Shown piece after piece: positions 1 to 13,596 of a stretch of DNA of 24,570 nucleotides. The notes beneath the pieces were generated by a model, which searched no databases, was not told the DNA's origin, and worked only from the letters and a program-made list of their open reading frames with translations. The stretch spans positions 1 through 24,570 of IMG/VR virus record IMGVR_UViG_3300046559_001029; one strand, given 5' to 3'. Position numbers and translations under genes: made by a program. Each line of letters opens with the position of its first letter. Position 1 is the first letter of the stretch. The DNA is from a virus.

Positions 1-55
1 GAACAGCAACTCGTGTTCGCAATCACAGGAACCTCAACAGTGGAGGAGGACAGAG

Positions 56-460
56 GTGGACGATCTGATTCTGAGGTTTCGAGAGCTATACCGCGCTTTC
101 GGTAGGACGAGCTTAACAGCTAAACCCGGTTACGATCAAGCTCAGATCGAGCTTTACATTCTAGCCCAGGCGCTTGGTTCGCTTTATGCGAAACAAACCC
201 AGGATCAGCTAAATGCATGCAGACGCGAGGCTATGCAACAGCTCATGGGCGAGCTCAAAAAGCTCCGCTATTCCGATGCTGTCATGGCGCCTGTAAACAC
301 AAACAGGCGGCGTATGAACTGGGCAGATATTCAGATCACGCCCGAGGTTACAATGGACCTTAGACTCATTGGCCGGGTGGTTGATAACAAGCTCGTGGCG
401 AAGCTAAATGCTCTGCGACGCAAGCAGATCTCGCAGATCCTAAGGATAGTAGGAGTCTGA
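56..460 (+). CDS. hypothetical phage protein, 134 aa
   Basis: I do not recognise this protein. It is mostly helical and basic, with many Arg, Lys and Gln residues, and has a Cys only at the RREAM helix (CRREAM). The GTG start is chosen because GGAGGAGGA lies at 42-50 with a 5-nt spacer. The same frame is open to the left edge of the window, so a start outside the window cannot be excluded. The end of an upstream gene probably overlaps this start: the first reading frame from base 1 is open to a TAG at 103-105. The next gene begins 1 nt after the stop. Function is unknown; position among early small genes suggests an accessory role. Confidence 0.75.
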   Translation: MDDLILRFRELYRAFGRTSLTAKPGYDQAQIELYILAQALGSLYAKQTQDQLNACRREAMQQLMGELKKLRYSDAVMAPVNTNRRRMNWADIQITPEVTMDLRLIGRVVDNKLVAKLNALRRKQISQILRIVGV

Positions 461-461
461 T

Positions 462-623
462 ATGTTAAACCGCTGGACTCTTAGCGCAACCTGTAAAAGC
501 TGTAAGCGAGAGCTTAAGCTTACTGGTTTTATAGAAGATGACCGAGCTGAAACAGCTAAAGAGATCGAGCGCGGTTACATGTGTGACCGTTGCAAAACCA
601 GAAGGAGGAAACTCAGTGCCTAA
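462..623 (+). CDS. small CxxC/CxxC zinc-ribbon-like protein, 53 aa
   Basis: This is a 53-residue ORF starting ATG with AGGAG at 451-455 and a 6-nt spacer. It has two CxxC pairs, CKSC at residues 11-14 and CDRC at 41-44, about 26 residues apart, and ends in a basic tail (KTRRRKLSA). That layout is typical of a small zinc ribbon that binds one Zn ion through four Cys residues. Its tail overlaps the start of the next gene by 8 nt, which indicates translational coupling. Zinc binding is inferred from the spacing of the cysteines; the partner (nucleic acid or protein) is unknown. Confidence 0.7.
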   Translation: MLNRWTLSATCKSCKRELKLTGFIEDDRAETAKEIERGYMCDRCKTRRRKLSA

Positions 624-957
624 ACACGAAGACGAGGTAGAGCTTGCAGCGAGCGTTGACGGGCTAGCGCGCAGTCGCTTCTGGCTCGAGGCTGTGAAAA
701 TCTCAGACGAGCTTGCTCATGCTTCTAATCCTGAAAAGCCATTGACTGCATTGCAGCTTTCAGGAATCATCCTCAAACTCGCAAACGAGGTCTTACTCAT
801 CCGCCCGGCGCGGAGCGCCTCCGCGTCAGAGCTACTGCGAGCCAAACCTATCTGTCAACCATGTATTGAAGATAGGCATCACGAATGTGAGGGTTGTCCT
901 TGTACCGCACGTTACAACGGAAAAAATCATGTTGATAATGATCGATCAACCACCTAA
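616..957 (+). CDS. hypothetical protein with C-terminal Cys/His cluster, 113 aa
   Basis: The start is GTG 616, because AAGGAGGAA at 602-610 lies just upstream. The longer in-frame ORF from 538 would overlap the whole preceding gene's second half without its own ribosome-binding site. The N-terminal part is helical (about residues 8-70). The C-terminus carries CQPC, then RHHECEGCPC, a dense Cys/His cluster likely to bind zinc. Similar Cys-rich tails are common in small phage proteins of unknown function. No enzymatic motif is visible. Confidence 0.7.
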   Translation: MPKHEDEVELAASVDGLARSRFWLEAVKISDELAHASNPEKPLTALQLSGIILKLANEVLLIRPARSASASELLRAKPICQPCIEDRHHECEGCPCTARYNGKNHVDNDRSTT

Positions 958-1117
958 AAATCTCCTCCCAGGCCAATATCTAACAAAAGCCTGCTGTGGT
1001 CGCGGGTGGATCATAAACGGTCCTGCCATTCCAATGCCACAGCCCACACGCAAACCCCATCGACTTCAAGCCGTCCAAACTCAGACCCGGGCCGAAGGCC
1101 CTTCGCGTGAGGGTTAA
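929..1117 (+). CDS. hypothetical protein with CCGRGW motif, 62 aa
   Basis: Short ORF overlapping the previous stop by 29 nt, with possible starts at ATG 929 and ATG 938. Neither has a clear Shine-Dalgarno sequence, so expression would rely on coupling to the gene before it. The sequence has a CCGRGW patch followed by a Pro-rich stretch and a basic, Gln-rich tail. CxGRGW-type patches occur in small phage zinc proteins, but only one Cys pair is present here. It could be a non-coding remnant; the exact abutment with the next ATG (1118) slightly supports it being read. Confidence 0.45.
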   Translation: MLIMIDQPPKNLLPGQYLTKACCGRGWIINGPAIPMPQPTRKPHRLQAVQTQTRAEGPSREG

Positions 1118-1189
1118 ATGATTGATATCATTCAATCCCTCGCAATCCTCATGTTAGCAATCGCGTGTATTTTCAACTCCCGGCGTTGA
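1118..1189 (+). CDS. possible 23-aa single-pass membrane peptide
   Basis: ATG at 1118 follows the previous TAA with no gap. The reading frame gives a 23-residue peptide, mostly Ile, Leu, Ala and Met, with one Cys and a basic C-terminal SRR. It is long enough for one membrane span. There is no Shine-Dalgarno of its own, so translation would depend on termination of the upstream ORF. Such tiny peptides are easily spurious. Confidence 0.3.
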   Translation: MIDIIQSLAILMLAIACIFNSRR

Positions 1190-1209
1190 TCTTAGCGCCC
1201 ACCTAAAAT

Positions 1210-1232
1210 GTTCAAAATCTGAAAATTTGAAC
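1210..1232. promoter_or_regulatory. imperfect palindrome upstream of sigma-54-type promoter
   Basis: A dyad runs from GTTCAAAA at the left to AATTTGAAC at the right. It is made of two overlapping, imperfect copies of the 15-bp palindrome seen cleanly at 6718, 14770 and 23484. It ends 11 nt before the -24 element of the promoter at 1244-1260. A half site (GTTCAAAA) recurs at 1274-1281, near the expected transcription start. An operator or activator site is inferred from position and repetition. Confidence 0.5.
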
Positions 1233-1243
1233 GCGGGTTCATG

Positions 1244-1260
1244 TTGGCACAGGTTTTGCA
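1244..1260 (+). promoter_or_regulatory. sigma-54 (RpoN) type -24/-12 promoter
   Basis: TTGGCAC at 1244-1250, a 5-nt spacer, then TTGCA at 1256-1260. The GG and GC dinucleotides are separated by exactly 10 nt, the invariant spacing of -24/-12 promoters. Transcription would start near 1271 and lead into the gene at 1326. It lies in the 136-nt gap between 1189 and 1326, correctly oriented. Sigma-54 promoters need an AAA+ activator, and none is seen in this window. Confidence 0.75.
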
Positions 1261-1325
1261 CTCTATATCCTGTGTTCAAAAAACGGCTGACATAAACCAG
1301 CCACAAATCAAAAGGAGAAACGGAA

Positions 1326-1613
1326 ATGCCCACGCTCGAGATTCCCAGTCAGGAACATGCCCAAACGAAGGTTGTAACCCTTAAGTGCTCCACCGGCAAG
1401 GGGGATGCGAAGAAGGAGCACGACTTCCAGGCGAAGATGCCGGCTTCTCTCGCTGACGCAATCGCGCTCGAGGGCGAGAAGGCAACGTTCAAGCGCTATC
1501 TCAATAGCCTGGCCATTGAGCTCCAGGGCACTGAGCGCGCGAAGCTCGCCCCTGAGGAAAAGAACGGTCCGGGTCGCAAGCGTGCCAGCTACCTGGAGGA
1601 GCTCGGGGTCTAA
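1326..1613 (+). CDS. hypothetical protein, 95 aa
   Basis: This is the first gene after the sigma-54-type promoter. ATG 1326 is preceded by AAAGGAG (1311-1317). The protein is soluble and charged, with a short beta-like start, a central helix rich in Ala and Glu, and a basic GPGRKR patch near the C-terminus before a short acidic helix. I recognise no family; the basic patch could contact nucleic acid. The stop overlaps the next start (TAATG), so the two genes are translationally coupled. Confidence 0.75.
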   Translation: MPTLEIPSQEHAQTKVVTLKCSTGKGDAKKEHDFQAKMPASLADAIALEGEKATFKRYLNSLAIELQGTERAKLAPEEKNGPGRKRASYLEELGV

Positions 1614-1918
1614 TGTCCGATGGTTGGCTGAGTTATGTTAACGCGCATATCTTTGGTATCGTCGTTTTCATAACCCAGCTTTACACCATCCACCTAATCA
1701 AAAAGCAAGGGAGAACAGCAGTGGCTTCAAATCAGGATATCCTCGACGAGATCACCGCCCAGAGCACGATCGAAGATAGCGTTCTCGCTCTGGTCAAACA
1801 GCTTGTGGCAGACAACGACCCCGCCTCGCGGCAGGCGATTCTCGATGGTCTGATCGCTAACAAGGCAAAGCTGAACGCAGCTATCCTCGCCGGAACGCCG
1901 CAGGCTCCGACTACCTGA
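1613..1918 (+). CDS. small membrane-anchored protein with possible internal start, 101 aa
   Basis: The N-terminal 30 residues hold one hydrophobic segment (about residues 11-28, FGIVVFITQLYTIHLI) followed by KKQGR, which predicts a single membrane span. The rest is a soluble helical domain rich in Ala, Asp and Leu, ending in TPQAPTT. An in-frame GTG at 1721 (residue 37) has its own AAGGGAGA at 1707-1714 and a 6-nt spacer. A second, membrane-free product of about 65 residues is therefore possible. Small membrane proteins with dual starts recall holin/antiholin pairs, but the evidence stops at topology. Confidence 0.7.
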   Translation: MSDGWLSYVNAHIFGIVVFITQLYTIHLIKKQGRTAVASNQDILDEITAQSTIEDSVLALVKQLVADNDPASRQAILDGLIANKAKLNAAILAGTPQAPTT

Positions 1919-1960
1919 TCACGTGTTGGGAGGTTGGGGTTGGCCACCCGTAAAACTGAT

Positions 1961-1970
1961 GCGCTAGCGC
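1961..1970. repeat. 10-bp perfect palindrome GCGCTAGCGC
   Basis: A perfect palindrome at the left end of the 248-nt gene-poor gap 1919-2166. Its right half CTAGCGC recurs at 2143-2149, inside the large hairpin downstream. It may be a protein site or a chance feature of this GC-rich gap. Confidence 0.35.
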
Positions 1971-1994
1971 TGACGTTTCCTTCCATCGGCTTTC

Positions 1995-2158
1995 ACCCTT
2001 ATCAACCAACCGCGAGACGGCCAGTGGGGGTGATAGGGTTAGAGGCTTTCAGGTTTAACTTCCAAGCTACCTGAAAGCCCCTTCCCTGATGCGCGTTAGG
2101 TTAGCCAGGCAGGGCGTAAGCCCCCCGCGTGCTTGCTGGCGTCTAGCGCGTATCAGGG
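1995..2158 (+). ncRNA. cluster of three consecutive hairpins, candidate structured RNA
   Basis: Three stems follow each other with only 4-nt linkers. Hairpin A pairs 1995-2007 with 2029-2039 (ACCCT-ATCA-CC with two bulged bases). Hairpin B pairs 2044-2054 with 2069-2079, a perfect 11-bp stem (GGCTTTCAGGT) and 14-nt loop. Hairpin C pairs 2084-2099 with 2143-2158, 16 bp with two G-U pairs. None is followed by a T-tract, so they are not ordinary terminators. The gap holds no well-supported gene. A structured leader, an RNA antiterminator or part of a replication origin are all possible; I recognise no named RNA family. Confidence 0.55.
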
Positions 2159-2162
2159 AGGG
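2084..2162 (+). promoter_or_regulatory. 16-bp hairpin with GUAA tetraloop overlapping a ribosome-binding site
   Basis: The outer stem is CCCTGATGCGCGTTAG (2084-2099) with CTAGCGCGTATCAGGG (2143-2158); the two non-Watson-Crick positions are both G-U pairs, as expected for RNA. Inside, GCCAG (2104-2108) can pair with CTGGC (2136-2140), and GGGC-GTAA-GCCC (2112-2123) forms a stem capped by a GNRA tetraloop. The last three G of the outer stem are part of the Shine-Dalgarno AGGGAGGG of the gene at 2167. Folding would therefore partly hide that site. Confidence 0.6.
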
Positions 2163-2166
2163 TTCA

Positions 2167-2424
2167 GTGGGAGATCTCAAAATCGAAACATTGCGAGCTG
2201 AGTTATCTCGGCTCGCATTGCTACGTTTAGGTTTGAAAGTTGAGATCAAAGACCTTTGGAAGCTTGCAAACGCCAAGCAAGCTGAGCTAGAAGCCACACA
2301 GATTCGTGAAGATCTAATCTCACGAATAGAATGGGAGCTGAGAAAATGCCTGAAACCGGATGTGAAAAGCACGTTGGAGATCGACAGATCAGTTGCTCAG
2401 ACTGCTGGACAAATGAGGAGCTAG
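2167..2424 (+). CDS. hypothetical coiled-coil protein, 85 aa
   Basis: The GTG at 2167 is chosen because AGGGAGGG lies at 2155-2162. The longer in-frame start at 2089 falls inside the hairpin stem and has no ribosome-binding site. The protein is almost wholly helical with a Leu/Ile heptad-like pattern (residues 4-60), so a coiled coil is likely. One Cys is present. It overlaps the next gene by about 80 nt in another frame. No known family is recognised. Confidence 0.6.
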   Translation: MGDLKIETLRAELSRLALLRLGLKVEIKDLWKLANAKQAELEATQIREDLISRIEWELRKCLKPDVKSTLEIDRSVAQTAGQMRS

Positions 2425-2558
2425 AGGGGCAGCTTAGTCAGATTCAAAGCTGTCGCATTCCATCGCCTGCAGGCACTAAATCTAAACCCAAGCGCTCAGA
2501 TCAGCCGCGCGAGAAAAGCAAAAAGCGCTCTTGGATGGATGAGCTTCTAGATGTCTGA
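2346..2558 (+). CDS. hypothetical basic protein with Cys pairs, 70 aa
   Basis: ATG 2346 has GGGAG at 2333-2337. The N-terminal 25 residues carry a Cys and then CSDC, a possible metal site. The middle and end are very basic and Pro/Lys/Ser-rich (KSKPKRSDQPREKSKKR), ending in a short acidic helix WMDELLDV. A disordered, nucleic-acid-binding tail is plausible. The 79-nt overlap with the preceding gene is large even for a phage, so one of the two starts may differ. The stop overlaps the next start by 8 nt. Confidence 0.5.
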   Translation: MPETGCEKHVGDRQISCSDCWTNEELEGQLSQIQSCRIPSPAGTKSKPKRSDQPREKSKKRSWMDELLDV

Positions 2559-2772
2559 AGATCAAACGCCCGGCCAAGATCAATTAGTCGATCTCATCTT
2601 CGACTGCGCTCTACGCGCATGTGCTGATGTTCTATTCGAGGTCGTTCTCGAAATGGAAAAGTACGGGGACCCTACCATAATGAAAATGAAAGAAAGTATC
2701 ATCCAAGCGCTTAGAAATCGCGTTATGGGCCCGGGCTTTCTCAGCGGCATCGGCTCAAACCTTCCAAAATGA
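2551..2772 (+). CDS. hypothetical helical protein, 73 aa
   Basis: An acidic N-terminus is followed by a long amphipathic helix (about residues 11-40) that holds two Cys residues, then a second helix and a Gly-rich tail. No motif is recognised. It overlaps the previous stop by 8 nt and the next start by 4 nt (ATGA), consistent with one polycistronic, coupled cluster. Confidence 0.65.
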   Translation: MSEDQTPGQDQLVDLIFDCALRACADVLFEVVLEMEKYGDPTIMKMKESIIQALRNRVMGPGFLSGIGSNLPK

Positions 2773-2936
2773 AAGCCCGAGAGGTTGAACTTCGCATAAA
2801 GGTTGTAACAAATCAACCCTTGCGGGAGTTTAAAGAACTAGCTATGTATCTAGCTCTTATTCAACCCCCATCGCTTCTATCCATTGACATTAAAGAGGTT
2901 GAGGTGTTGAGCGTAAAGCCGTTTAAGGAGGATTAA
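2769..2936 (+). CDS. hypothetical protein, 55 aa
   Basis: A 55-residue ORF starts in the ATGA overlap with the preceding gene and ends in a TAATG overlap with the next. It looks like a small alpha/beta fold: a beta-like start (VELRIKVV), a helix (residues 18-31) and a beta-like end (IDIKEVEVLSV). The last codons also contain AAGGAGG, the ribosome-binding site of the following gene. Function unknown. Confidence 0.65.
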   Translation: MKAREVELRIKVVTNQPLREFKELAMYLALIQPPSLLSIDIKEVEVLSVKPFKED

Positions 2937-3217
2937 TGTCAAAGCCAGTGACTGCTAATCGCATGCTCGCCCTAATCAACGCCCTCGACTGGTCCGGGCA
3001 TGTCGAAATTGGCGATAACGATAAAGTCTGGTTAGCGATGTCTCTAGCTGATCTCATCAGCCCTCCGCATGATAAAGCCCGTTGTGAAGCATGCGGCGTC
3101 CTTCAAACTATTGTAATCAAAACCGCGCTTGGAAGCGTATGTGAAGATTGCCTAGATGACTTCTCGACTGAGGCAGCGACCCTTCGGGAAGATATGGAGG
3201 CGGCGAATGAGTCATGA
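2936..3217 (+). CDS. hypothetical protein with CxxC...CxxC zinc ribbon, 93 aa
   Basis: ATG 2936 has AAGGAGG at 2925-2931. The N-terminal half is helical. CEAC at about residues 50-53 and CEDC at about 69-72, 16 residues apart, with beta-like sequence between (LQTIVIKTALGSV), form a classical zinc-ribbon arrangement. A Glu-rich helix follows. It is the last gene of normal base composition before the GC-rich island, and the next gene starts inside its last codons. Confidence 0.7.
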   Translation: MSKPVTANRMLALINALDWSGHVEIGDNDKVWLAMSLADLISPPHDKARCEACGVLQTIVIKTALGSVCEDCLDDFSTEAATLREDMEAANES

Positions 3218-4313
3218 AGATCCATATTGGTGGAGAGAACGTGAAGGTGTACTTCAATCGCGAATAGATGAGTGTATGGATACCATCGCCACCCTCACCC
3301 GCGAACGGGTCGAGGCGAGGGAAAATGCACGACGCGCGGACGCTGGCTGGAATCAGTGTCTCGACACGGTCCACGAACTCGCCGCCGAACGTGACCGCCT
3401 CCAGGCCGAGCTCGAGCGATTCCGCGTGTGCTCGTGCGAGAGCGGGGCGCAGGCGTCCCATGCGATTCGGGAGGCGGATGCGCTGCGGGGGGAGCTTGCT
3501 GCGGAGCGAGAAGCCCGCAACCGCATCGCGCGCGAGTTAGCGGACCGGCACGACAATTCACTCGCCCTAAAGGAAGACCGCGACAAGGAGTATGCGCGCG
3601 CCGAGCATCTACTCGTCGAAGCCGCGATGCTGGAAGTGGAACGGGACGACGCACGTTGCGCCCTCGCCGCGGCGACCGCGCGGGTGGGGGAGTTGGAGCG
3701 AGAACGCAACGGCCTTGGCGATGCACTACAAGAGACGGAAGCACGACTTCGTGAAGCGGAAACAGAAGGCTACAAGGCGAGTTGGCTCACTAAGTGCCCC
3801 GAGTGCGAAGCAGCGACCGCGCGCACGGATGAAGATGGTTGCTGCTTGTCGTGTGGCACGGACACCTCCGTTGTAGGCTCGTATGAGGGGCGGCTAGACG
3901 ACCTCCGCACCCGCCTCGCCACCGCCGAGGGGCGGGTGGCTGAGTTGGTGGCGGCGTTGGAGCGGTCCGTTGCTATCATTGAGACTTGGCACCGAGTGTT
4001 TCTTGCGTCTCCGGCGCGATGCAAGTTCGATCGGCATGACATAGGTACAACCGATCAGTTCCCAGGGTTTAGCTGCGAGGGGTGCACAACCCATTCACAA
4101 GCTCGCGCCGCCCTCGCGACCACCGATCCCAGCGGGTTGGCGGTGGTGCGGGAGGCGATCGAGTCGGCGAGCGAGATGCCGCACTGCTACGGAGCGATGG
4201 GGTTGGAGCACACGATCGAGTGCGACGAGGACATAGCGACGTGTCGATTCTGTACGGCGATGCGTGCCCTCGCGGCCCGCTTCGGCACGCCCGGGACGGG
4301 GGAGGGGAAGTAA
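3207..4313 (+). CDS. coiled-coil protein with Cys-rich zinc-ribbon region, 368 aa
   Basis: ATG 3207 is preceded by GGAGG (3196-3200), so the longer in-frame start at 3156 is rejected. Residues 10-190 are an Arg/Glu/Ala-rich heptad pattern, a long coiled coil. CPEC (197-200) and CLSC (213-216) form a zinc ribbon. A second coil (228-260) follows, then further pairs CEGC (290-293) and CRFC (346-349). The architecture suggests a scaffold or DNA-associated protein, but no family is recognised. From about codon 28 onward the base composition jumps to about 65-70% GC in sampled lines, so the gene may be a fusion of a resident start with an acquired body. Confidence 0.7.
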   Translation: MSHEDPYWWREREGVLQSRIDECMDTIATLTRERVEARENARRADAGWNQCLDTVHELAAERDRLQAELERFRVCSCESGAQASHAIREADALRGELAAEREARNRIARELADRHDNSLALKEDRDKEYARAEHLLVEAAMLEVERDDARCALAAATARVGELERERNGLGDALQETEARLREAETEGYKASWLTKCPECEAATARTDEDGCCLSCGTDTSVVGSYEGRLDDLRTRLATAEGRVAELVAALERSVAIIETWHRVFLASPARCKFDRHDIGTTDQFPGFSCEGCTTHSQARAALATTDPSGLAVVREAIESASEMPHCYGAMGLEHTIECDEDIATCRFCTAMRALAARFGTPGTGEGK

Positions 4314-4314
4314 G

Positions 4315-4494
4315 ATGGGAGCCAGTCGGCAAGCCTATGACCTTTGGCATCCAGCATGTCGTGCGGCCTTTCGTTCCGTGCTCTCACGCGCCGGTCGCGA
4401 TAGCCAGTGGCGACGTTGGTACTTCTGGCGACTCGTCATCGCCGATACATGGCAGCGGGTGTGCAGCCGACCCACCCCACGCGAGGAGGCGTAG
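4315..4494 (+). CDS. hypothetical Arg/Trp-rich protein, 59 aa
   Basis: ATG 4315 follows the previous stop by 1 nt, with a G-rich GGGGAGGGG-like site just upstream; a longer in-frame start at 4264 lies wholly in the preceding gene and is rejected. The protein is small, basic and unusually rich in Trp and Arg (WRRWYFWRLVIADTW), with two Cys residues. It could be a compact helical DNA- or membrane-associating protein. No relative is recognised. The next gene starts directly after its stop. Confidence 0.6.
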   Translation: MGASRQAYDLWHPACRAAFRSVLSRAGRDSQWRRWYFWRLVIADTWQRVCSRPTPREEA

Positions 4495-4761
4495 ATGGCG
4501 AACGAGATGGAAGCGCGGGCGCGGGCGTTGATGATCGACCTATCGCGGCGAGGGTTCGTCTCGCGCTCCGACTACGACGACTCGGCCAAGACCGCTGCTC
4601 GCGAGGTCGCCGCTTTCGCGCGGGAGGAAGTGGCGCGAGCGTTGGAGGAGGCCGTGCAGTTGGTTCGCGATGCGTCGGGCATAGCCGATACCGGCGTCGA
4701 GGACCTCTGCGCCGCCATCCTCGCCATCCGCCCCCGTCCCCCGAAAGGCGGGAAGGGGTGA
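4495..4761 (+). CDS. hypothetical helical protein, 88 aa
   Basis: ATG 4495 directly follows the preceding TAG and has GAGGAGG at 4482-4488. The protein is helical, with Arg, Glu and Ala dominant, and ends in a Pro/Gly/Lys tail. The sequence VSRSDYDDSAKTAAREVAAFAREEVARAL resembles the generic helical modules found in many actinobacterial and proteobacterial phage proteins; no function follows from that. High-GC codon use matches the rest of the island. Confidence 0.65.
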   Translation: MANEMEARARALMIDLSRRGFVSRSDYDDSAKTAAREVAAFAREEVARALEEAVQLVRDASGIADTGVEDLCAAILAIRPRPPKGGKG

Positions 4762-4766
4762 GGGCG

Positions 4767-4946
4767 GTGGACGTGGAGATGCTAGAGCAAGCGGCGCGTG
4801 AACGCATGCGCAAACTGGGTGCGTTCTTGCTAACGGCGAACGATGTACAACGCGAAGCGGTGGGCATCACGCTCGTCGCCATGGGTGCGGCGATGGCGGC
4901 AGACAACGCGCGCCGCACCCCGAGACGAGGGAGGATGCAGGGATGA
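4767..4946 (+). CDS. hypothetical helical protein, 59 aa
   Basis: Two GTG starts are possible, 4758 (4-nt overlap GTGA with the previous stop) and 4767; 4767 is chosen because GGAAGGGG at 4751-4758 is then 8 nt away. An ATG at 4779 is a third option. The product is a short helical protein (MLEQAARERMRKLGAF) with a mildly hydrophobic Ala/Met-rich stretch (ITLVAMGAAMA) and a basic tail. It overlaps the next gene by 4 nt. Not recognised. Confidence 0.5.
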   Translation: MDVEMLEQAARERMRKLGAFLLTANDVQREAVGITLVAMGAAMAADNARRTPRRGRMQG

Positions 4947-5194
4947 AGAGACGACGGCGCATCATCAACCAGTTGCGAAAGCTCTACCCCGACGAGTTGT
5001 GGCACTACGATGCCGATCTGTGCGAGTGGCAGACCGAATCGGGGTGGCGCGTCTATGCTGAGAGCCTGCTGACGCCGCGCTACGACGGCGACGACGAAAC
5101 GTGCGCGGTGCAGTATCGGCGTAGCGACACACACGAGCTGCTGTCAGTCGGGGGCTCGTTGCTGGGGTTCGCCTTGCTGGGGCTCACGGGATGA
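4943..5194 (+). CDS. hypothetical protein with basic N-terminus and hydrophobic C-terminus, 83 aa
   Basis: The start lies in an ATGA overlap with the previous gene, with GGGAGG at about 4928-4933. Residues 2-6 are KRRRR, followed by a small aromatic-rich domain (LWHYDADLCEWQTESGWRV). The last 18 residues are hydrophobic and Gly/Leu-rich and could associate with a membrane. No family is recognised. An ATGA overlap couples it to the next gene. Confidence 0.6.
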   Translation: MKRRRRIINQLRKLYPDELWHYDADLCEWQTESGWRVYAESLLTPRYDGDDETCAVQYRRSDTHELLSVGGSLLGFALLGLTG

Positions 5195-5493
5195 GAGAGC
5201 GAGCGGAGGCGAAGGCGATTGCAGCGGCGTTGGTACGCGACTGGGCCGGCAAGTTCGGCTTGGGGCAAGCCATCGCCGACGCCCTCCTCGCCGCGCACCG
5301 GGCGGGCGTAGATGCGATGAAGGAGAAGGCGGCGAAGGCCATGTGCGTTGCATGCAAGGACGGCGCGCCGTGGTGTGGGGACGATTGTTGGATTCACAAT
5401 GGCGAACGGCATCACTTCGTCTATCCGCTACATCGTCGCTGCGATGCCGCCGCGATCCGCACCCTACCCCTGGAGGACGAGCATGGCGAGTAA
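5191..5493 (+). CDS. hypothetical protein with C-terminal Cys/His domain, 100 aa
   Basis: The start is in an ATGA overlap with the previous gene. Residues 1-48 are helical and Ala-rich. The C-terminal half has CVAC, then C, C, H, HH, H and C residues, ending in CDAAAIRTL. This pattern is common in small actinobacterial and proteobacterial phage proteins of unknown function and probably binds a metal. It is the last gene of the GC-rich island; the lipoprotein gene begins inside its last codons. Confidence 0.65.
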   Translation: MRERAEAKAIAAALVRDWAGKFGLGQAIADALLAAHRAGVDAMKEKAAKAMCVACKDGAPWCGDDCWIHNGERHHFVYPLHRRCDAAAIRTLPLEDEHGE

Positions 5494-5632
5494 GCTATTC
5501 ATCTTCTTCCTTTTATCCTCATGCTCCCCTACAAACCCCTGGTGGATCAAGCATCCTAACTGTACAGTCGAATACGATACTAAAGCTAACATAGTCGCAT
5601 CCTATTGCGATCCAGATAAGGAACCTAAATGA
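5483..5632 (+). CDS. small lipoprotein, 49 aa
   Basis: ATG 5483 has GGAGG at 5472-5476 and a 6-nt spacer. The N-terminus is a short lipoprotein signal: K4, a hydrophobic run LFIFFLL, and lipobox LSSC with the modified Cys at residue 14. The mature part is only about 36 residues and contains two more Cys (PNC and SYC) that may form a disulfide in the periplasm. Phage lipoproteins of this size include outer-membrane spanin subunits and superinfection-exclusion lipoproteins such as T5 Llp; nothing here separates these. The stop overlaps the GroES start (ATGA). Confidence 0.65.
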   Translation: MASKLFIFFLLSSCSPTNPWWIKHPNCTVEYDTKANIVASYCDPDKEPK

Positions 5633-5937
5633 AATTCGAACCACTCGAAGATCGCATCCTCGTCCTCCCAGACACAGCCGATGAACAAAAAGGCTTAATC
5701 TACATTCCAGAAACCTACCGCAAGCGTCCACAGCTTGGAACGGTGATCGCTGCTCCAACTGGCATACGCAATCACGACGGTGACATGGTAGATCCCCTTG
5801 TCAAAGTCGGTGATCGGATTCTGTTCGCAAAATACACCGGAACAGAAATAAAGATTGAAGAGGTAGACTACATCATCATGCGCGAGGGCGATATCCTCGG
5901 GCGTTTACATGGAGAAACAGATGAAAAACTCGACTAG
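5629..5937 (+). CDS. groES: GroES-type co-chaperonin (Cpn10), 102 aa
   Basis: The sequence follows the Cpn10 fold from end to end. The N-terminal strand (FEPLEDRILVLP) leads into a mobile loop with hydrophobic GLIYIP in place of the usual GGIVL that docks into GroEL. Then come the GTVIAAPTG strand and the core VKVGDRILFAKYTGTEIKIEEVDYIIMREGDILGRL, matching host GroES. Length is close to the usual 95-100 residues. Phage GroES proteins replace the host lid so that GroEL can fold phage proteins, as T4 gp31 does for its capsid protein. AAGGAA lies 5 nt upstream of the ATG, and the gene is coupled to the lipoprotein gene before it. No GroEL gene is seen. Confidence 0.93.
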   Translation: MKFEPLEDRILVLPDTADEQKGLIYIPETYRKRPQLGTVIAAPTGIRNHDGDMVDPLVKVGDRILFAKYTGTEIKIEEVDYIIMREGDILGRLHGETDEKLD

Positions 5938-6709: not shown

Positions 6710-6717
6710 ACGTAAAC

Positions 6718-6732
6718 GTTCAAAAATTGAAC
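6718..6732. promoter_or_regulatory. 15-bp palindrome GTTCAAAAATTGAAC
   Basis: A perfect palindrome around a central A, ending directly at the ATG of the lipoprotein gene at 6733. It is adjacent to a second palindrome, AACGT-AA-ACGTT at 6709-6720. It shares the frame GTTCA-N5-TGAAC with 14770-14784 and nearly so with 23484-23498. A binding site for a repressor or activator is inferred. Confidence 0.55.
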
Positions 6733-6945
6733 ATGCGAAGTTTAGCTTTCGCGTTGCTTCTATCTGGCTGTTCGTTCTGCCACGCTCCGATGGTTCCACC
6801 GAATATACCCCCGGGCGTTGAAACTACAGCATTCATAGATCAGCATGAGGAATGCTGGACCTTTGATCTTCGCCCGGAGGCGATCCAGGTTTTAACCATC
6901 GCTGCGTCAGTAGCTAAAATGTTCGCAGGCTCAGGCGCGGATTAG
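6733..6945 (+). CDS. small lipoprotein, 70 aa
   Basis: The ATG 6733 start gives a clear lipoprotein signal: R2, a hydrophobic LAFALLL, and lipobox LSGC with the lipidated Cys at residue 13. A further C follows at once (SFC) and another at about residue 41. The mature protein is Pro-rich at first (PMVPPNIPPG), then acidic, then helical. No Shine-Dalgarno precedes it; the palindrome at 6718-6732 occupies that space, so translation may be weak or regulated. TTG 6727 is an alternative start. It is the second small lipoprotein around groES. A spanin or superinfection-exclusion role is possible. Confidence 0.6.
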   Translation: MRSLAFALLLSGCSFCHAPMVPPNIPPGVETTAFIDQHEECWTFDLRPEAIQVLTIAASVAKMFAGSGAD

Positions 6946-6962
6946 TTGGCACGCATATTGCA
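6946..6962 (+). promoter_or_regulatory. sigma-54 (RpoN) type -24/-12 promoter
   Basis: TTGGCAC at 6946-6952, 5 nt, TTGCA at 6958-6962, with GG and GC exactly 10 nt apart. It matches the promoter at 1244 at every consensus base. It occupies the only gap between the lipoprotein gene and the nuclease gene at 7004, and transcription would start near 6973. It would therefore drive the recombination and replication genes. Confidence 0.78.
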
Positions 6963-7003
6963 ATATGTCCTATAAAGCCACAACCCGTTGAGGAGGAAGT
7001 TGA

Positions 7004-7960
7004 ATGCGGCCAAAGCCACTACAGGATCTGATAGATCGCTGTAAACAGCAGGGCATAGACGTTATGAGCTCTAGCAGAGCTGATACATTTATGCTCTGCA
7101 AACGCAAGTACTATTACCGCTACGAGCTTGGCCTAACACCCGTTAGCCATGTCGAAGCCACAAACCATGCAACTGCTCTGAACTTCGGCTCTGCCCTTCA
7201 CGCCTCCCTCGCTACTCTCTATAATGGTAGCGCGTTCGAACCCTCCACTTGCCCCTGCCCATATGAACCTACGATCGGGTGTCTTCATTGCAAGGGTGAA
7301 AAGATGCCTCGCATCCTGGCTCAGTTCCTCATCCATTACCCGGATGATCCAACCGACGAGAAAGACCCCCGGACCCGTGATCGCGGAATGCAGATCCTCA
7401 TGGCTTACATCCGCAAATATCGGAACGAGCCATTTGAGGTCATAGCGGTTGAGATACCCTTTGCTCGAGAGTTTGAGGATTTTGTTTATGTTGGAATCCT
7501 CGATCTCTTGATCAAAGAAAACGGAAAGCCAAAGCCGCTTGACCATAAATCAGCCTCGCGCTTTGGCCAGCAGTTTATGAACCAGTTCAAACTCTCCGGC
7601 CAGATGACTGGTTACATTGATGCTGTTCAAGAAATCACCCACGAACCGTGTTCTGAGGGTGATATCAATGCTATCAGAACAACCACAAAAATCGACGATG
7701 ACAGCTTCGCGCGCCTAACCACCAGCAGAACCCCGGCCGATATCGAGGAATGGAAGCTTGAAACGAAAGCGATTCATGACGATATCAAGCGCTTACGCAC
7801 CGAAGGTTTCTGGCCTCGATCAGCACCGTTTGCTTGCAGCGCCTACAATCGTGAATGTGAGTTCTATCAGATCTGCACTGTTCAAGGTGCAAGCCGCGAG
7901 CAGGTTATAAAAAACGGTTACGATCGAGCCGATGCTGATGAGATAGAAAATCTGGATTAA
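7004..7960 (+). CDS. PD-(D/E)XK nuclease, Cas4/AddB-like with Fe-S cysteines, 318 aa
   Basis: The protein has the RecB-family nuclease order: SSSRADTFMLCKRKYYYRY at 22-40, FGSALHASL with the catalytic His at 66, E150, GILDLL with D167, and PLDHKS with D180 and K182 (the D-x-K pair), then QFKLSGQMTGY. Cys32 plus Cys278, Cys285 and Cys291 have the spacing of the 4Fe-4S cluster of Cas4 and AddB nucleases. An insertion at 83-96 (CPC...CLHC) adds a second possible metal site. Such nucleases resect DNA ends in phage recombination beside annealing or strand-exchange proteins, which fits the Sak4-like ATPase and SSB-like protein downstream. AGGAGGAAG at 6991-6999 supports ATG 7004. Confidence 0.85.
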   Translation: MRPKPLQDLIDRCKQQGIDVMSSSRADTFMLCKRKYYYRYELGLTPVSHVEATNHATALNFGSALHASLATLYNGSAFEPSTCPCPYEPTIGCLHCKGEKMPRILAQFLIHYPDDPTDEKDPRTRDRGMQILMAYIRKYRNEPFEVIAVEIPFAREFEDFVYVGILDLLIKENGKPKPLDHKSASRFGQQFMNQFKLSGQMTGYIDAVQEITHEPCSEGDINAIRTTTKIDDDSFARLTTSRTPADIEEWKLETKAIHDDIKRLRTEGFWPRSAPFACSAYNRECEFYQICTVQGASREQVIKNGYDRADADEIENLD

Positions 7961-7961
7961 A

Positions 7962-8126
7962 ATGGCCGAGACATGGATTCCAGTTCTTGTGAATCTAACC
8001 CCCGAGCAAACGGAGGTTCTTCGCAAGATTACATATGAAACCAGAATCAGCCGCAACGAAATAATTCGGGCGGCTGTTGACGAATGGCTAGCAAAAAGGG
8101 AGGACAATAGGAATGTCATACTTTAG
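7962..8126 (+). CDS. ribbon-helix-helix DNA-binding protein, 54 aa
   Basis: ATG 7962 begins 1 nt after the nuclease stop. The sequence has one beta strand (WIPVLVNLT), then helix 1 (PEQTEVLRKITYET), the turn RISRNEI and helix 2 (IRAAVDEWLAKRE). This is the MetJ/Arc/CopG ribbon-helix-helix layout, in which two chains form a sheet that reads the DNA major groove. It probably binds an operator in this phage, and the 15-bp palindromes are candidate targets, though that is only inference. The 3' end overlaps the next gene by 14 nt. Confidence 0.75.
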   Translation: MAETWIPVLVNLTPEQTEVLRKITYETRISRNEIIRAAVDEWLAKREDNRNVIL

Positions 8127-8253
8127 GGATTTGAAGGATGATTTGGTGCGGCTGAAGGAGCCCGAGAGCCCAGATCTCGACCCTGACATGGAAGATCTCG
8201 AAGATGACGAGTTTGATGAGATCGACGAGGATGATGAGGAAGAAGAGGAATGA
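8113..8253 (+). CDS. extremely acidic small protein, 46 aa
   Basis: ATG 8113 lies inside the ribbon-helix-helix gene, with AGGA/AATAGG-like sequence upstream. Of 46 residues, 25 are Asp or Glu; the last 20 are almost uninterrupted acid. A short N-terminal helix (SYFRDLKDDLVRLKE) precedes the acidic tail. Phage proteins of this kind include DNA mimics that block restriction or nucleoid proteins; acidic tails also dock replication partners. The ATGA overlap with the ATPase gene suggests it works with that recombination set. Function is not shown by the sequence. Confidence 0.7.
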   Translation: MSYFRDLKDDLVRLKEPESPDLDPDMEDLEDDEFDEIDEDDEEEEE

Positions 8254-9056
8254 GCGAGCTAGCCCGAGCTGTTCCTTTAACCGAGGTTAAGGGAAACAAA
8301 AGCTATCTGTTCTATGGCCCGGGGGGAGCTGGGAAAACTTATCTAGCCTTTAAGCATCCTGGGAAGCGTAAGCTGATCATCGACATAGATCAGCGCGCTC
8401 ATGAACTTTTCCCACTTCTCACCCCCGATGAGCGATCCACCATAACCGTCTGGTCCCCTAACGAAACTCTGAATGAAACCGGAGTTTTCGTTGCCGAGGT
8501 TGATCCTAAGCGTGCCGATATGTCTAAAGGTACGCAGTTTAAAGTGGAACCTAAAGGCTATTATAAAATCGCAGCGGTTGTTAATGAGTTGCTTGCGATG
8601 CGAAAGCAAGAGTCATTTCCATATGATCTTGTGATCATGGATTCGCTCACTCGGATCATAGATCATTTGATCTACCTTGTGATGTATACTCATAAGGTAA
8701 CCAACATGACCCAAACGTTGTTCCAGGTGGAGGGGAGGAATGCAAAAGACCTTGTGCTGGGGTTCCTTGAGCTACCATGCGATCGTATCCTCATCGCGCA
8801 TTCGCATCATAAAGAGGTACGTGATAAAGACACAGGAGCGCTGGTCAAAGAGACGATCCGTCCACACGTTTTTGGCTCAGACTCGCTCCGTGAAGAATTG
8901 TCAACCTTGTTTAGTGAGGTCTATTATTTTCATGGATTCAATCCAAATACAAAAAAGTACCTCATTCAAACCGCGAATGACCGCATCCGCCCTGCTCGAA
9001 CTGCTAAGGGATTAGCGTTTGAACAGGAGGTAGAACCAACCAAAATCTTCGCATAA
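8250..9056 (+). CDS. Sak4-like P-loop ATPase (AAA_24 type), 268 aa
   Basis: Walker A is GPGGAGKT at 23-30. Walker B is LVIMD ending at D131, followed by S132. RecA-like features include IIDIDQRAHEL at 43-53 and a Gln/His-rich strand end (RILIAHSHHKEV). The size and order match the phage ATP-binding proteins annotated as Sak4 or AAA_24. These act as single-strand annealing or RecA-like recombinases and are usually found beside an SSB-like gene, as here. The ATGA overlap couples it to the acidic protein. An alternative is a helicase loader-like ATPase. Confidence 0.8.
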   Translation: MSELARAVPLTEVKGNKSYLFYGPGGAGKTYLAFKHPGKRKLIIDIDQRAHELFPLLTPDERSTITVWSPNETLNETGVFVAEVDPKRADMSKGTQFKVEPKGYYKIAAVVNELLAMRKQESFPYDLVIMDSLTRIIDHLIYLVMYTHKVTNMTQTLFQVEGRNAKDLVLGFLELPCDRILIAHSHHKEVRDKDTGALVKETIRPHVFGSDSLREELSTLFSEVYYFHGFNPNTKKYLIQTANDRIRPARTAKGLAFEQEVEPTKIFA

Positions 9057-9086
9057 GCGGGGTTTCAAAAACTAAAAGGAGATACG

Positions 9087-9503
9087 ATGTCTGAAACCGA
9101 CGATCTCTTCGTTAACGTAAATCTGGATGACGTCGATGATGGCTTGGACCCAATGCCTGATGGTCCGACTATCTGCCGCGTTCACTCTCTCGCAAAAAAG
9201 CACAAGGAAGGCTCTGACTACGCATACATCGAGGTAGTCTTGAAGCCTGCCGCAGATGTCAACCCGGATCTGGAGACCTTCAAAAACCGGAATCTGTGGA
9301 TGAACATGTCCTTTAACCCAAAGGCTCTGTTCAACATGAAGGCCTTTGCTAAGGCATGTGGCCTGGCGTGGACTAAGCAAGGCGTCAACTGGGCCGAGGC
9401 ACGAGAGAAGCTCGTGAGTGTTAACCTTGGCACGGAGCCTGCGTTCAACAACCCTGAGCGCAAGGTTAACGTTGTCAAGATGCCTTACAACGCAGTTCGC
9501 TAG
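9087..9503 (+). CDS. single-stranded-DNA-binding-like protein (DUF669 type), 138 aa
   Basis: An acidic N-terminus (to about residue 25) is followed by an OB-like domain: GPTICRVHSLAKKHKEGSDYAYIEVVLKP, the KNRNLWMNMSFNPKAL strand and helix, then an FAKACGLAW helix and a final beta segment VSVNLGTEPAFNNPERKVNVVKM. This is the layout of DUF669-type SSB-like proteins that accompany Sak4 in phages. AAAGGAGA lies at 9076-9083. The role would be coating ssDNA for the ATPase upstream. Directly after the stop comes an intrinsic terminator. Confidence 0.72.
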   Translation: MSETDDLFVNVNLDDVDDGLDPMPDGPTICRVHSLAKKHKEGSDYAYIEVVLKPAADVNPDLETFKNRNLWMNMSFNPKALFNMKAFAKACGLAWTKQGVNWAEAREKLVSVNLGTEPAFNNPERKVNVVKMPYNAVR

Positions 9504-9510
9504 ATAACAG

Positions 9511-9564
9511 AAAGGCCCTGGTAGGAGCGAAGTGAAACCCCCTCCTATCGGGGCCTTTTTGTTT
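9511..9564 (+). terminator. strong intrinsic (rho-independent) terminator
   Basis: The arm AAAGGCCCTGGTAGGAG (9511-9527) pairs along its full 17 nt with CTCCTATCGGGGCCTTT (9542-9558), two pairs being G-U. The loop is 14 nt and the stem ends in TTTTTGTTT. It lies 7 nt after the SSB-like gene, so the transcript from the promoter at 6946 is likely to end or be attenuated here before the ParB-methylase gene. Confidence 0.88.
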
Positions 9565-9573
9565 GAGGTCGAT

Positions 9574-9744
9574 ATGAATGAGAAGCGTTACTTAGGCGAC
9601 GCAGTATATGCATGTTGGTCTAATTTTGGGGACCTTATGTTAACTACAGAAGATGGTATAAACGTAACTAACAAAATATATTTAGAGCCAGAAGTTCTCA
9701 ATAGCCTTATGAATTTTATAAAGGAGACCTCAAGTGCTCGTTGA
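9574..9744 (+). CDS. hypothetical protein, 56 aa
   Basis: The ATG at 9574 with GAGG at 9565-9568 is chosen; an in-frame GTG at 9532 lies inside the terminator loop. The sequence has a beta-rich start (YLGDAVYACWSNFGDLMLTTEDGINVTNKIYLEPEVLNSLMNFI). The DGI-x-VTNKIYLEPEVL segment recurs in small phage proteins of unknown function. It overlaps the ParB-methylase gene by 11 nt and supplies its ribosome-binding site (AAAGGAG). Confidence 0.7.
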   Translation: MNEKRYLGDAVYACWSNFGDLMLTTEDGINVTNKIYLEPEVLNSLMNFIKETSSAR

Positions 9745-11119
9745 GATCAAAAGCATCAAGGTCCGAAAAGACCGTCAGCGTAAAGACTTCGGTGATATCG
9801 AAGGTCTAGCCGCCAGCATCGGCCGCATAGGTTTGATTCATCCAATCGTACTCGACGGTGAAGGCTACCTTCTAACCGGCGGCCGTAGACTCGCGGCTCA
9901 TATCCACCTCGGCAAAACTCACATCGAGGCTTTACATCGAGAGGAAGCTGACTCGATCACGCTCCAAGAAATCGAGCTTGAAGAAAACCTCCGTCGCAAG
10001 GATCTGAACTGGGTTGAGGAAGTTAGAGCGCTTCGTAGAATCTTTGTGCTAAAGCGCGAACGCTATGGCTCTGACTTCCCGGGCGCAAAGAACTTCACCA
10101 TGCGCGACGCGAGCGAGGAACTCGACAAGGCAATCGGCGGCATCTCAATGGATCTGCAACTCGCAGACGCCTTGGACAAGTACCCAGATCTCGCTGATGA
10201 GCTGACCAAGAGCGCAGCGTGGAAGAGGTTCAAGCGTGAAGAAGAAACAAAGATCAGAACCGAACAGGCCCGTCGAACCCGTGGGGATATGGAGTCGGCC
10301 GCGGATAAAGTCGATCAGAAGCTTTCCACTAGCGCAGCTGCTAGCCCCGACAAAACCTCACGCGCGGCTGACATTCGCCGCATCACGTGGAAAGGCAAGG
10401 GTATCCTCTACCTAGCAAACAGCATTGATGTTCTCAGTATCTATGCTGAGAAGTCAATCGACTGCTTGGTGACAGATCCTCCATACGCCCTCGGGATGTT
10501 CAAGGAAGGTAACACAACCGGCAACTCGCGCCTCGCGGAAAACGCCGGCCACATGTACGACGATGACCCGGCCGAGATGCTTAACATGCTCGACCAGGTT
10601 TTCATGCATGCTGCGCGTTGTTTGAAGTCCGACGGTCATGCGTACATATTCTTCCACCACACCAAATACGAAGAAATGTACCTCATGATCCGCAAACACT
10701 TCGGAACCTGTGAGGAAACTCCCATTGTCTGGATCAAAAATACGCCCGGGATCGGCGATCCGAATCGAAGCTGGGTATATGCCTATGAACCTTGCCTGTT
10801 TGTTAACCGTGGACGAGGCTTGGTTAAACCACAGGCTTTTAACTATCTCAAGTATGACACTGTCCCTCCAGGCAAAAAGATTCACCCAACTCAGAAACCA
10901 GATCAGCTCCTCAGACATATCATTTCCGCCTCATGCGTCCCCGGAGAAGTGGTCCTTGATCCATTCGCAGGATCTGGATCAACTCTTGTGGCTGCTGCTC
11001 AAGTTGGATGCCGCTTTATCGGAATCGAGCGAGAGGAAAAGTTTCATCGAGCAGCAACAGAGCGAATCGCAGAAGAGCTAGCGGCTGGAGAGGGATCTGA
11101 CAATGCGTCTACAGGATGA
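9734..11119 (+). CDS. ParB-domain / DNA adenine-type methyltransferase fusion, 461 aa
   Basis: Residues 1-110 are a ParB/Spo0J-like N-terminal domain, with TGGRRLAAH (48-56) and ELEENLRRKDL (81-91) as its two signature motifs. Residues 220-450 are a DNA methyltransferase: DPPY (248-251, the catalytic motif of N6-adenine and some N4-cytosine enzymes), HPTQKP (384-389) and the SAM-binding DPFAGSGST (409-417). The DPPY-before-FxGxG order is the beta class. It would methylate phage or host DNA, perhaps for protection from restriction or for marking replicated DNA; no restriction enzyme is nearby. The GTG start is supported by AAAGGAG at 9720. The target sequence cannot be read from the protein. 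Confidence 0.88.
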   Translation: MLVEIKSIKVRKDRQRKDFGDIEGLAASIGRIGLIHPIVLDGEGYLLTGGRRLAAHIHLGKTHIEALHREEADSITLQEIELEENLRRKDLNWVEEVRALRRIFVLKRERYGSDFPGAKNFTMRDASEELDKAIGGISMDLQLADALDKYPDLADELTKSAAWKRFKREEETKIRTEQARRTRGDMESAADKVDQKLSTSAAASPDKTSRAADIRRITWKGKGILYLANSIDVLSIYAEKSIDCLVTDPPYALGMFKEGNTTGNSRLAENAGHMYDDDPAEMLNMLDQVFMHAARCLKSDGHAYIFFHHTKYEEMYLMIRKHFGTCEETPIVWIKNTPGIGDPNRSWVYAYEPCLFVNRGRGLVKPQAFNYLKYDTVPPGKKIHPTQKPDQLLRHIISASCVPGEVVLDPFAGSGSTLVAAAQVGCRFIGIEREEKFHRAATERIAEELAAGEGSDNASTG

Positions 11120-11294
11120 TACTATAGCAGTTCATCTAAAACCCTTAGAGATTGCGCTTATCATGGCGTATAGTAAAAACAAAAGTCAATCTCTATTTGA
11201 TCTTGAAGGCGAACAGTGGAATAACATATTCATCGCTATGGTAAAAGCTCTTGCTCCGGAGGGAACGAAACGTGCCCAACCTGGTGATGCCTGA
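11103..11294 (+). CDS. hypothetical protein, 63 aa
   Basis: ATG 11103 overlaps the methylase stop by 17 nt, with GAGAGGGA (11088-11095) upstream. The protein is a helical, mildly acidic 63-residue chain with SLFDLEGEQWNNIFIAMVKAL as the central helix. No family is recognised. Its 3' end overlaps the start of the polymerase gene by 23 nt and contains the polymerase ribosome-binding site. Confidence 0.65.
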   Translation: MRLQDDTIAVHLKPLEIALIMAYSKNKSQSLFDLEGEQWNNIFIAMVKALAPEGTKRAQPGDA

Positions 11295-13596
11295 TGGAGA
11301 CCCGAACTCAAAGATTGCAATTATTGGCGCGAGACCTGCATACGATGAAGTTAGATCTGGAAAGGCATATACTGGACCCACAGGACAAAAGCTCTGGCGA
11401 TGGCTTGGCATTCCCCGAAGCGAATGCTATGTGTCTAATGTTAGACGCGATTGGGCAGATCACGATGTATCTGAGCGAGAGCTTACAGAGGCACTTCCTA
11501 TTCTTAGAGAAGAACTCTCGCACATTAAACCAAACATCCTCATTACCCTTGGACCAGCAGCTCTCACAGCAGTCACCGGCAAGCGAGGCATCACAAACTG
11601 GCGAGGCTCGATCCTCGAATCAACCATTATCCCAGGTCTCAAAGTCTTGCCCACACTGCAACCGGCCTCTGCTGATACGACTTTCAGCCTTAGGTACGTA
11701 ATCGAACTCGATCTCAGGAAAGCACGCCGTGAATCTCAATATCCAGATATCAGGCGACCTCAGCGCACCTTCCACATTAACCCCCCGTTCGAGGAAGCGT
11801 GTTCAATTTTACGATCACTGGGCGCTACTATCTCTGTTGATATCGAAACTCTTGGGAACACGATCTCATGTATCGGTATCGCTGACAGTCCAAGTCGAGG
11901 AATCTGCATTGCCTTTGTTGGCGGACCTTATACAACAGATGAGCTCATTGCTCTCTGGCGCGAGCTGGACGTTGTCCTCAGAACCCGGGCATGTCGAGGC
12001 CAGAACTTCCAGTTCGACACCACACGCCTCGAACGCTACGGTTTCAAAATCAACAACATCGCCGATGACACCATGCTCAAGCACCATCTCCTCTGGACGG
12101 AACTTGGTTCTGGTGTCAAAAGGAAGCAAGGGGATAGAGGGATAGACTCGCTCACTGGGAAGCATTCGCTAGCTTTCATCAGCTCAATCTATACAGATGA
12201 GCCATACTATAAATACGAAGCAGACTCATGCTGGAACGATCCGGGTCTTGAGCTTGGCGAGCGCTTCCATCGGTATTGGACTTATAACCTTAAAGATTGC
12301 TTCGTTACCGAAGAATCCGGCCTGGCGATGGATAAAGAACTCATCCGCTTTAACCAGGTCGAATACTTCCGTGAACATGTCCTTGGCCTCATCAGACCCG
12401 TTATGCGGATGCAAGATCGTGGATTGTTCGTTGACCACACCGCGCTTTCTACAACATCCAAAAGAACAAAACTCGAGCAAGATGTGCTTCAACAACAGCT
12501 CGATCAAGCCGTAGGCTTCCACTGCAATGTAAAAAGCCCGGCAGACATCCGCTATGTGATCCAAGAGGTCTTACATGAAAAGCTCTCTAAGCTCACAAAA
12601 AAAGGCGCAATCTCAACAGACGAAGATACTATTCGAACACTCGCTTATCGAGGGGAACACACCGAGATTTATCGACTCATTTTGGATATCAGAGAACGTC
12701 GCACTCTTCTCTCAAACTTTCTCTCGCTTGAAACTGACGGCGGACGGTATAAGGCTTCATATCTCATTCATGGAACTGACTCCGGGCGTCTATCAAGTCG
12801 TGCTGTTGGGAAGGGACCCCAGCTTCAAAACATTCCAAAACCTACTCGAAAAATATTTAAGCCCGAGCCAGGAAATGTGTATGTTCAGGGTGACCTTGCA
12901 CGCGCAGAGGCAATGTACGTCGCCTACGACGCGCAGGAGCTTGAGCTCATCAAGCTCTTTGAAGATCCTACGCGTGATCTTTACCTCGAAACAGCGGCCC
13001 GAGCTCTTGGTCGATCTGTTGGAAAAGAATCTATAGAACGCATGGTTTTTAAGCAGGTGGTTCTAGGTTCGAACTACCTTATGGGACCTATGAAACTAGT
13101 GAGCGTCCTCGGGCTCAAAGGCATCGACATCATGAAACTCCCGGTGCCCGGGAACTCTCGGAAAGCTAAAGCGGTATATGTCCAAGATGGCTACTTCAAC
13201 CTATACCCTAGACTCCGGCGCTGGCAAGCAGAAATCGGACGTGAGATACGCGAAAATCGCTGTCTTGTTGATCCTTTTGGCCGTCGCCATATGTTCCTTG
13301 GCCGTCTTGATGACAGCTCTCTTGGTATTGCGCTTAGTCGCAAACCTCAGTCAACCATCGTCGGAATTACCAATAGAGCAATTAGGCTTCTGGATCAGCA
13401 AGGGCGTTATATTTGTGCCCAAGTTCATGACTCTATTCTAACCGAATGTAAACGCGCTCAGCGCGATGAAGAAGCAAACGCCATTCGCGAAGCCATGACT
13501 TGTCCCCTGAGCGTTCATGGCCGAACGATGACCATTCCGGTTGACCTACAGTGGTCAGATCAAAGTTGGGGGGATATGGTGACGTGGCAACCTTAG
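11272..13596 (+). CDS. family A DNA polymerase with N-terminal UDG-like and 3'-5' exonuclease domains, 774 aa
   Basis: GTG 11272 is chosen because CGGAGGGA (11257-11264) precedes it. Residues 13-150 are a uracil-DNA-glycosylase-like fold: IIGARPAYDEVRSGKAYTGP, the KPNILITLGPAAL strand, and VLPTLQPAS where a family-4 UDG has a HPS/HPA motif. Residues 185-345 are a DnaQ-type exonuclease: D190 and E192 (SVDIETLG), D249 (NFQFD), Y338 and D342 (YNLKD). The polymerase follows: SGRLSS (504-509), motif A GDLARAEA with D541 and E546, motif B R590-x3-K594-x3-L598-x3-Y602, and motif C QVHDS with D720. It replicates phage DNA. UDG-like domains fused to PolA have been found in other phages. The motif-B Leu and the lost UDG His are discussed in the findings. 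Confidence 0.92.
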   Translation: MPNLVMPDGDPNSKIAIIGARPAYDEVRSGKAYTGPTGQKLWRWLGIPRSECYVSNVRRDWADHDVSERELTEALPILREELSHIKPNILITLGPAALTAVTGKRGITNWRGSILESTIIPGLKVLPTLQPASADTTFSLRYVIELDLRKARRESQYPDIRRPQRTFHINPPFEEACSILRSLGATISVDIETLGNTISCIGIADSPSRGICIAFVGGPYTTDELIALWRELDVVLRTRACRGQNFQFDTTRLERYGFKINNIADDTMLKHHLLWTELGSGVKRKQGDRGIDSLTGKHSLAFISSIYTDEPYYKYEADSCWNDPGLELGERFHRYWTYNLKDCFVTEESGLAMDKELIRFNQVEYFREHVLGLIRPVMRMQDRGLFVDHTALSTTSKRTKLEQDVLQQQLDQAVGFHCNVKSPADIRYVIQEVLHEKLSKLTKKGAISTDEDTIRTLAYRGEHTEIYRLILDIRERRTLLSNFLSLETDGGRYKASYLIHGTDSGRLSSRAVGKGPQLQNIPKPTRKIFKPEPGNVYVQGDLARAEAMYVAYDAQELELIKLFEDPTRDLYLETAARALGRSVGKESIERMVFKQVVLGSNYLMGPMKLVSVLGLKGIDIMKLPVPGNSRKAKAVYVQDGYFNLYPRLRRWQAEIGREIRENRCLVDPFGRRHMFLGRLDDSSLGIALSRKPQSTIVGITNRAIRLLDQQGRYICAQVHDSILTECKRAQRDEEANAIREAMTCPLSVHGRTMTIPVDLQWSDQSWGDMVTWQP

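Follow-up and report, generated by a model that had tools for sequence, protein, structure and literature searches.

The site at positions 1244-1260 of the window (the whole stretch of DNA analysed here, a 24,570-nucleotide IMG/VR contig of an uncultivated virus) is best explained, taken as a whole, as a sigma-54 (RpoN) promoter that has at least two counterparts in this phage and is served by factors of the host, a reading to which we assign a probability of about 0.8. The strongest evidence comes from sister sites, which were missing from the preliminary description of this DNA: in the 42.5 kb of the phage that could be read from overlapping contigs, three near-identical TTGGCAY-N5-TTGCA sites are located just before genes, at 1244 and 6946 of the window and at 2550 of contig L001. 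Contig G001 is identical to window positions 1-5290 and runs 17.9 kb further left, G002 begins at window position 8571 and runs on rightward, and L012, which comes from another sample, differs from G001 by one base in 14.3 kb. In its gene order the phage is similar to podovirus-like records of ~44 kb, with the replication genes on a plus-strand arm and the terminase, portal and structural genes on a minus-strand arm. The phage also encodes a GroES-like co-chaperonin (window 5629-5937).

On the plus strand, TTGGCACAGGTTTTGCA extends from T1244 to A1260 and matches the -24/-12 consensus, with the GG-N10-GC spacing kept (GG at 1246-1247, GC at 1258-1259). The sequence and coordinates reported in the preliminary description are exact, and the position that it gave to the site, intergenic, correctly oriented and 66 nt from a gene with a Shine-Dalgarno sequence, was confirmed: the ATG at 1326 lies 66 nt past 1260 and is preceded by AAGGAG (1312-1317, +), which ends 8 nt short of it. 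This first gene (1326-1613, +) encodes a protein of 95 aa without a family match. With the C of the GC set at -12, the sigma-54 spacing rule predicts a transcription start at 1271 (+). The promoter is found ~3.4 kb inside the plus-strand arm, away from the arm start. The proposal that it heads an early operon is plausible because the gene at 1326 belongs to the plus-strand replication arm, opposite the structural arm, although the timing is deduced from gene order only.

The second site (6946-6962, +) is TTGGCACGCATATTGCA, a complete match to YTGGCACGNNNNTTGCW. It begins immediately after the preceding gene's stop codon and is separated by 42 nt from the ATG of an exonuclease gene at 7004, which has its own Shine-Dalgarno sequence, GAGGAGG (6990-6996, +). 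The genes that follow (7004-14762, +) encode the PD-(D/E)XK exonuclease, a ribbon-helix-helix protein, a Sak4-like ATPase, a ParB-methyltransferase, the DNA polymerase and the primase; in the product of 9734-11119, a DNA methyltransferase is fused to a ParB-like domain. The third site (L001:2550-2566) is placed ahead of a CHAP lysin gene and has the core TGGCAT-N5-TTGCA at L001:2551-2566. Within L001:2550-2583 the predicted start falls ~3 nt ahead of the lysin ATG; since this ATG would be at ~+4, the transcript would be nearly leaderless, with no ribosome-binding site left. The consensus scores of the phage sites are 24.5-26 of 26.

We asked how often such sequences arise by chance. In 42,497 nt of phage sequence, TGGCAY-N5-TTGCW was found four times, against a mean of 0.09 and a largest count of 2 in 300 dinucleotide shuffles, and TTGGCAY-N5-TTGCA three times, against 0.01 in the shuffles. 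The same pattern with any of ten other spacers (1-4 and 6-11) was found zero times in the phage. TTGCA stands at the sigma-54 distance from three of the 13 TTGGCA hexamers of the phage, and these are precisely the three intergenic ones. The window contains the core TGGCAC-N5-TTGCA without mismatch at three positions (1245+, 6947+ and 22251-); the last of these, a fourth exact core for the phage (22251-22267, -), lies within a structural gene in the sense direction and was set aside because it is intragenic, being probably a chance match. Hence three of the four TGGCAY-N5-TTGCW sites are intergenic, on the coding strand and ahead of start codons, two of them with a strong Shine-Dalgarno sequence. 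The core at 22251 indicates that chance matches may occur, but the intergenic position of the three other sites and the Poisson probabilities at the shuffled rates (~3e-6 for the four sites, 2e-7 for the three strict ones) make a functionless chance match at 1244 very improbable. The features of -24/-12 promoters are thus found together: GG and GC exactly 10 nt apart, a frequency above chance, dependence on the spacing, and a position on the coding strand before genes.

TTGGCA differs by one base from TTGACA, and the sites could be ordinary sigma-70 promoters in which TTGGCA is the -35 box and TTGCA lies in the spacer by chance. At a distance of N16, a -10 hexamer is offered by TATCCT at 1244, a weak fit (4/6), and by CATAAT at L001:2550, a fairly good one (5/6), but the best candidate at 6946 reaches 3/6, a score attained by ~48% of random positions, so that -35 and -10 hexamers 16-18 nt apart are not a property common to all the sites. 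Moreover, a sigma-70 promoter leaves unexplained why TTGCA is at the exact distance in three of three sites and absent from the other ten TTGGCA hexamers, and in relatives the TTGC is kept, the -10 hexamer not; we consider this explanation unlikely. That TTGGCAY-N5-TTGCA is bound by another protein, a regulator of the phage or of the host, and is no promoter core would agree with its recurrence beside other repeated sites such as TGTTCA-N5-TGAACA and with the ribbon-helix-helix protein encoded by the phage. The sequence is, however, non-palindromic, its three intergenic copies all face genes, and sigma-54 promoters share its consensus, its spacing and its distance from the start codon, an arrangement that recurs on many other virus contigs; we judge such a role quite improbable. 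The sigma-54 promoter originally proposed at 1244-1260 is therefore the reading that we retain, at the level of a prediction that is reinforced by the repetition of the site in the phage, its spacing specificity, its location before genes and its parallels in relatives and in IMG/VR.

The preliminary description had also pointed to an operator-like palindrome upstream of 1244. The palindrome is real (TGTTCAAAATCTGAAAA, 1209-1225), but a role as operator is one candidate beside enhancer or other functions. The phage has seven copies of TGTTCA-N5-TGAACA, this one included, when up to one mismatch is allowed, and 0.1 are expected, a comparison that is partly post hoc because the motif was defined after viewing the sequence. 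In window coordinates the copies are at -8227, -2524, -1534, -1379, 1209, 6717 and 14769; by contig, they are found at 1209, 6717 and 14769 of the window, at 1151, 2141 and 2296 of L001, and on G001 (window coordinate -8227). They are distributed over both arms, several at gene starts, and those at 6717 and 14769 lead straight into a gene ATG (TTGAACATG). Relative to the three promoters, palindromes are located near -54, -248 and -273, the second being CGTTCAAAAATTGAACA at 6717-6733, which precedes the start predicted for promoter 2 by ~248 nt. Sigma-54 enhancer sites usually lie 80-200 nt upstream; the palindrome of 1244, centred near -54, is close for a classical enhancer, and no clear enhancer at the standard distance was found for 1244. 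The palindromes may be activator sites, a phage operator or another type of site. The half site noted near the start point, TGTTCA at 1273-1278, is indeed present, but this hexamer alone is common (18 copies, ~10 expected) and constitutes weak evidence.

If 1244-1260 is a sigma-54 promoter, host RNA polymerase and host sigma-54, assumed to be present in the host, would form a closed complex on it, and transcription would start near 1271 only once an ATP-driven enhancer-binding protein of the host has remodelled this complex. Expression of the small gene (1326), of the exonuclease and replication genes (from 7004 on) and of the CHAP lysin gene would be turned on from the three promoters and would thereby follow the state of an activator in the host; binding, start points, activator and timing are here inferred from sequence. 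A search of the window contig for RpoN gave no match, nor did a search of three phage contigs for AAA+ activators, as is expected of a phage of the YuA type; since neither gene was found on the contigs searched, the host would supply both. With three near-identical predicted sigma-54 promoters before genes, the phage seems to rely on a host transcription apparatus whose activator is driven by ATP, a strategy recorded to date in very few phages. No sigma-54 transcription takes place until a regulator that consumes ATP has been activated, and replication genes placed under such control would make infection depend on a particular signal in the host, which may be nitrogen, envelope stress, motility or another; the link to nitrogen or stress state put forward in the preliminary description is one of these candidates.

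The sites share with the bacterial promoters of the RpoN regulon, whose -24/-12 consensus is reportedly given by Barrios et al. 1999, the TGGCAC-N5-TTGCA core, the GG-N10-GC spacing and the position just before genes, with the difference that here they are carried by a phage. Sigma-54 use by phages is already known from YuA, which depends on host sigma-54 according to a passage of PMC5053324 (citing Ceyssens et al. 2008) that names one such phage and calls this use rare. Three -24/-12 promoters are annotated in the GenBank record of YuA (NC_010116), with high measured activity. YuA and the window phage would both employ host sigma-54 at several promoters, which is proven in YuA, for late genes, and predicted here. 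However, in YuA the sites are found among genes for the virion and for lysis, a pattern that is seen in the window phage only at the CHAP lysin site, its other sites preceding genes for replication and further non-structural functions. By the score applied here, the YuA sites also fit the consensus poorly (best plus-strand scores 16.5-18.5 of 26, and none >16 for one of the three), compared with 24.5-26 in the window phage. A near-perfect consensus before mostly non-structural genes sets the window phage apart, and its predicted use of sigma-54 is well supported at the sequence level. YuA was absent from the best matches of the DNA polymerase and TerL searches.

We wondered whether related phages carry similar promoters. 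Searches with the 95-aa protein, the exonuclease, the DNA polymerase and TerL yielded further contigs of this phage and, beyond them, distant relatives only; no close relative in which the conservation of the sites could be compared was found among the matches. The structural protein and the promoter-region DNA gave no match among isolate phages, and a scan of genome collections for hosts recovered only metagenome bins with distant polymerases. A DNA polymerase alignment search yielded 80 loci, nearly all distant, and 92 loci with other relatives included. Family-wide enrichment of sigma-54 sites was absent from these 92 loci, with eight sites at the right spacer versus 0-8 at others, so the trait is patchy. 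Nevertheless, four of these eight sites occupy the same place in one clade, which a protein search extended to six contigs of uncultivated phages (L055, L058, L062, L071, L112 and L113) with a DNA polymerase of the same family at ~28% identity. As in the window phage, a consensus sigma-54 promoter leads there to a Shine-Dalgarno sequence and an ATG upstream of replication genes, and in all six contigs the core TGGCAY-N5-TTGCW is kept while the flanks have changed.

In this clade, two TCAGAWWTCTGA-type palindromes are present 68 and 125 nt upstream of the consensus promoter in six of six contigs, that is, near -88 and -145 from the predicted start, a region where sigma-54 enhancers usually lie. 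A second pair occurs ~1.8 kb further upstream in five of the six (L071 has one pair only); ~142/210 nt after it comes a TGGCAC-type site that is weaker but keeps the GG-N10-GC spacing. Clear palindrome pairs were seen in this clade only: its palindromes are paired and at fixed, enhancer-like distances, whereas those of the window phage differ in sequence and lie at variable distances. Before the gene of the consensus promoter, the clade also has repeated units of ~64 nt (AATAAAAACAA..ACTTA) with TCAGAWWTCTGA palindromes. MW202554, the nearest isolate record by TerL, has one sigma-54-type site just ahead of a Shine-Dalgarno sequence and ATG, and another that is intragenic. In L018:32005-34542, the MW202554 terminase gene is split by extra sequence between two matching parts, possibly an intein. 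Weak AAA+ matches in some relatives were considered as activators and are probably other ATPases.

The IMG/VR collection was then surveyed for TTGGCACG-N4-TTGCA followed by AGGAG within 18-48 nt, the same pattern with one extra spacer base serving as control. The 93 stretches found, compared with 16 for the control, are an indication and not a census, since there are near-duplicates and virus contigs may carry host DNA. An ATG frame of at least 40 aa begins at Shine-Dalgarno distance in 47 of the 83 matches listed, near-duplicates included (40 distinct proteins), and in none of the 16 control matches. Sixteen records picked for carrying such a site contain 27 sites, three records having three each, against one match of a reversed control. 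These counts (93 versus 16, with reading frames as expected) suggest that sigma-54 use is commoner among uncultivated phages than the literature implies. We would give even odds to the broader proposal that the use of host RpoN is a recurrent transcription strategy across uncultivated phage lineages, with host-takeover or replication genes under consensus promoters and, in some cases, paired enhancers of their own; if true, the course of infection in several lineages would follow the condition of an enhancer-binding protein of the host. The survey provides named contigs and sites. Most proteins downstream of the IMG/VR sites have no known function. A PHROG match to 'Srd anti-sigma factor' under a sigma-54 promoter in L148 was discarded, as it covers only the endonuclease VII-like domain. 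Two groups of similar-looking small proteins of no known function recur immediately downstream of consensus sigma-54 promoters on separate virus contigs, one on L143, L151, L169 and L182 and the other on L160, L173, L185 and L203.
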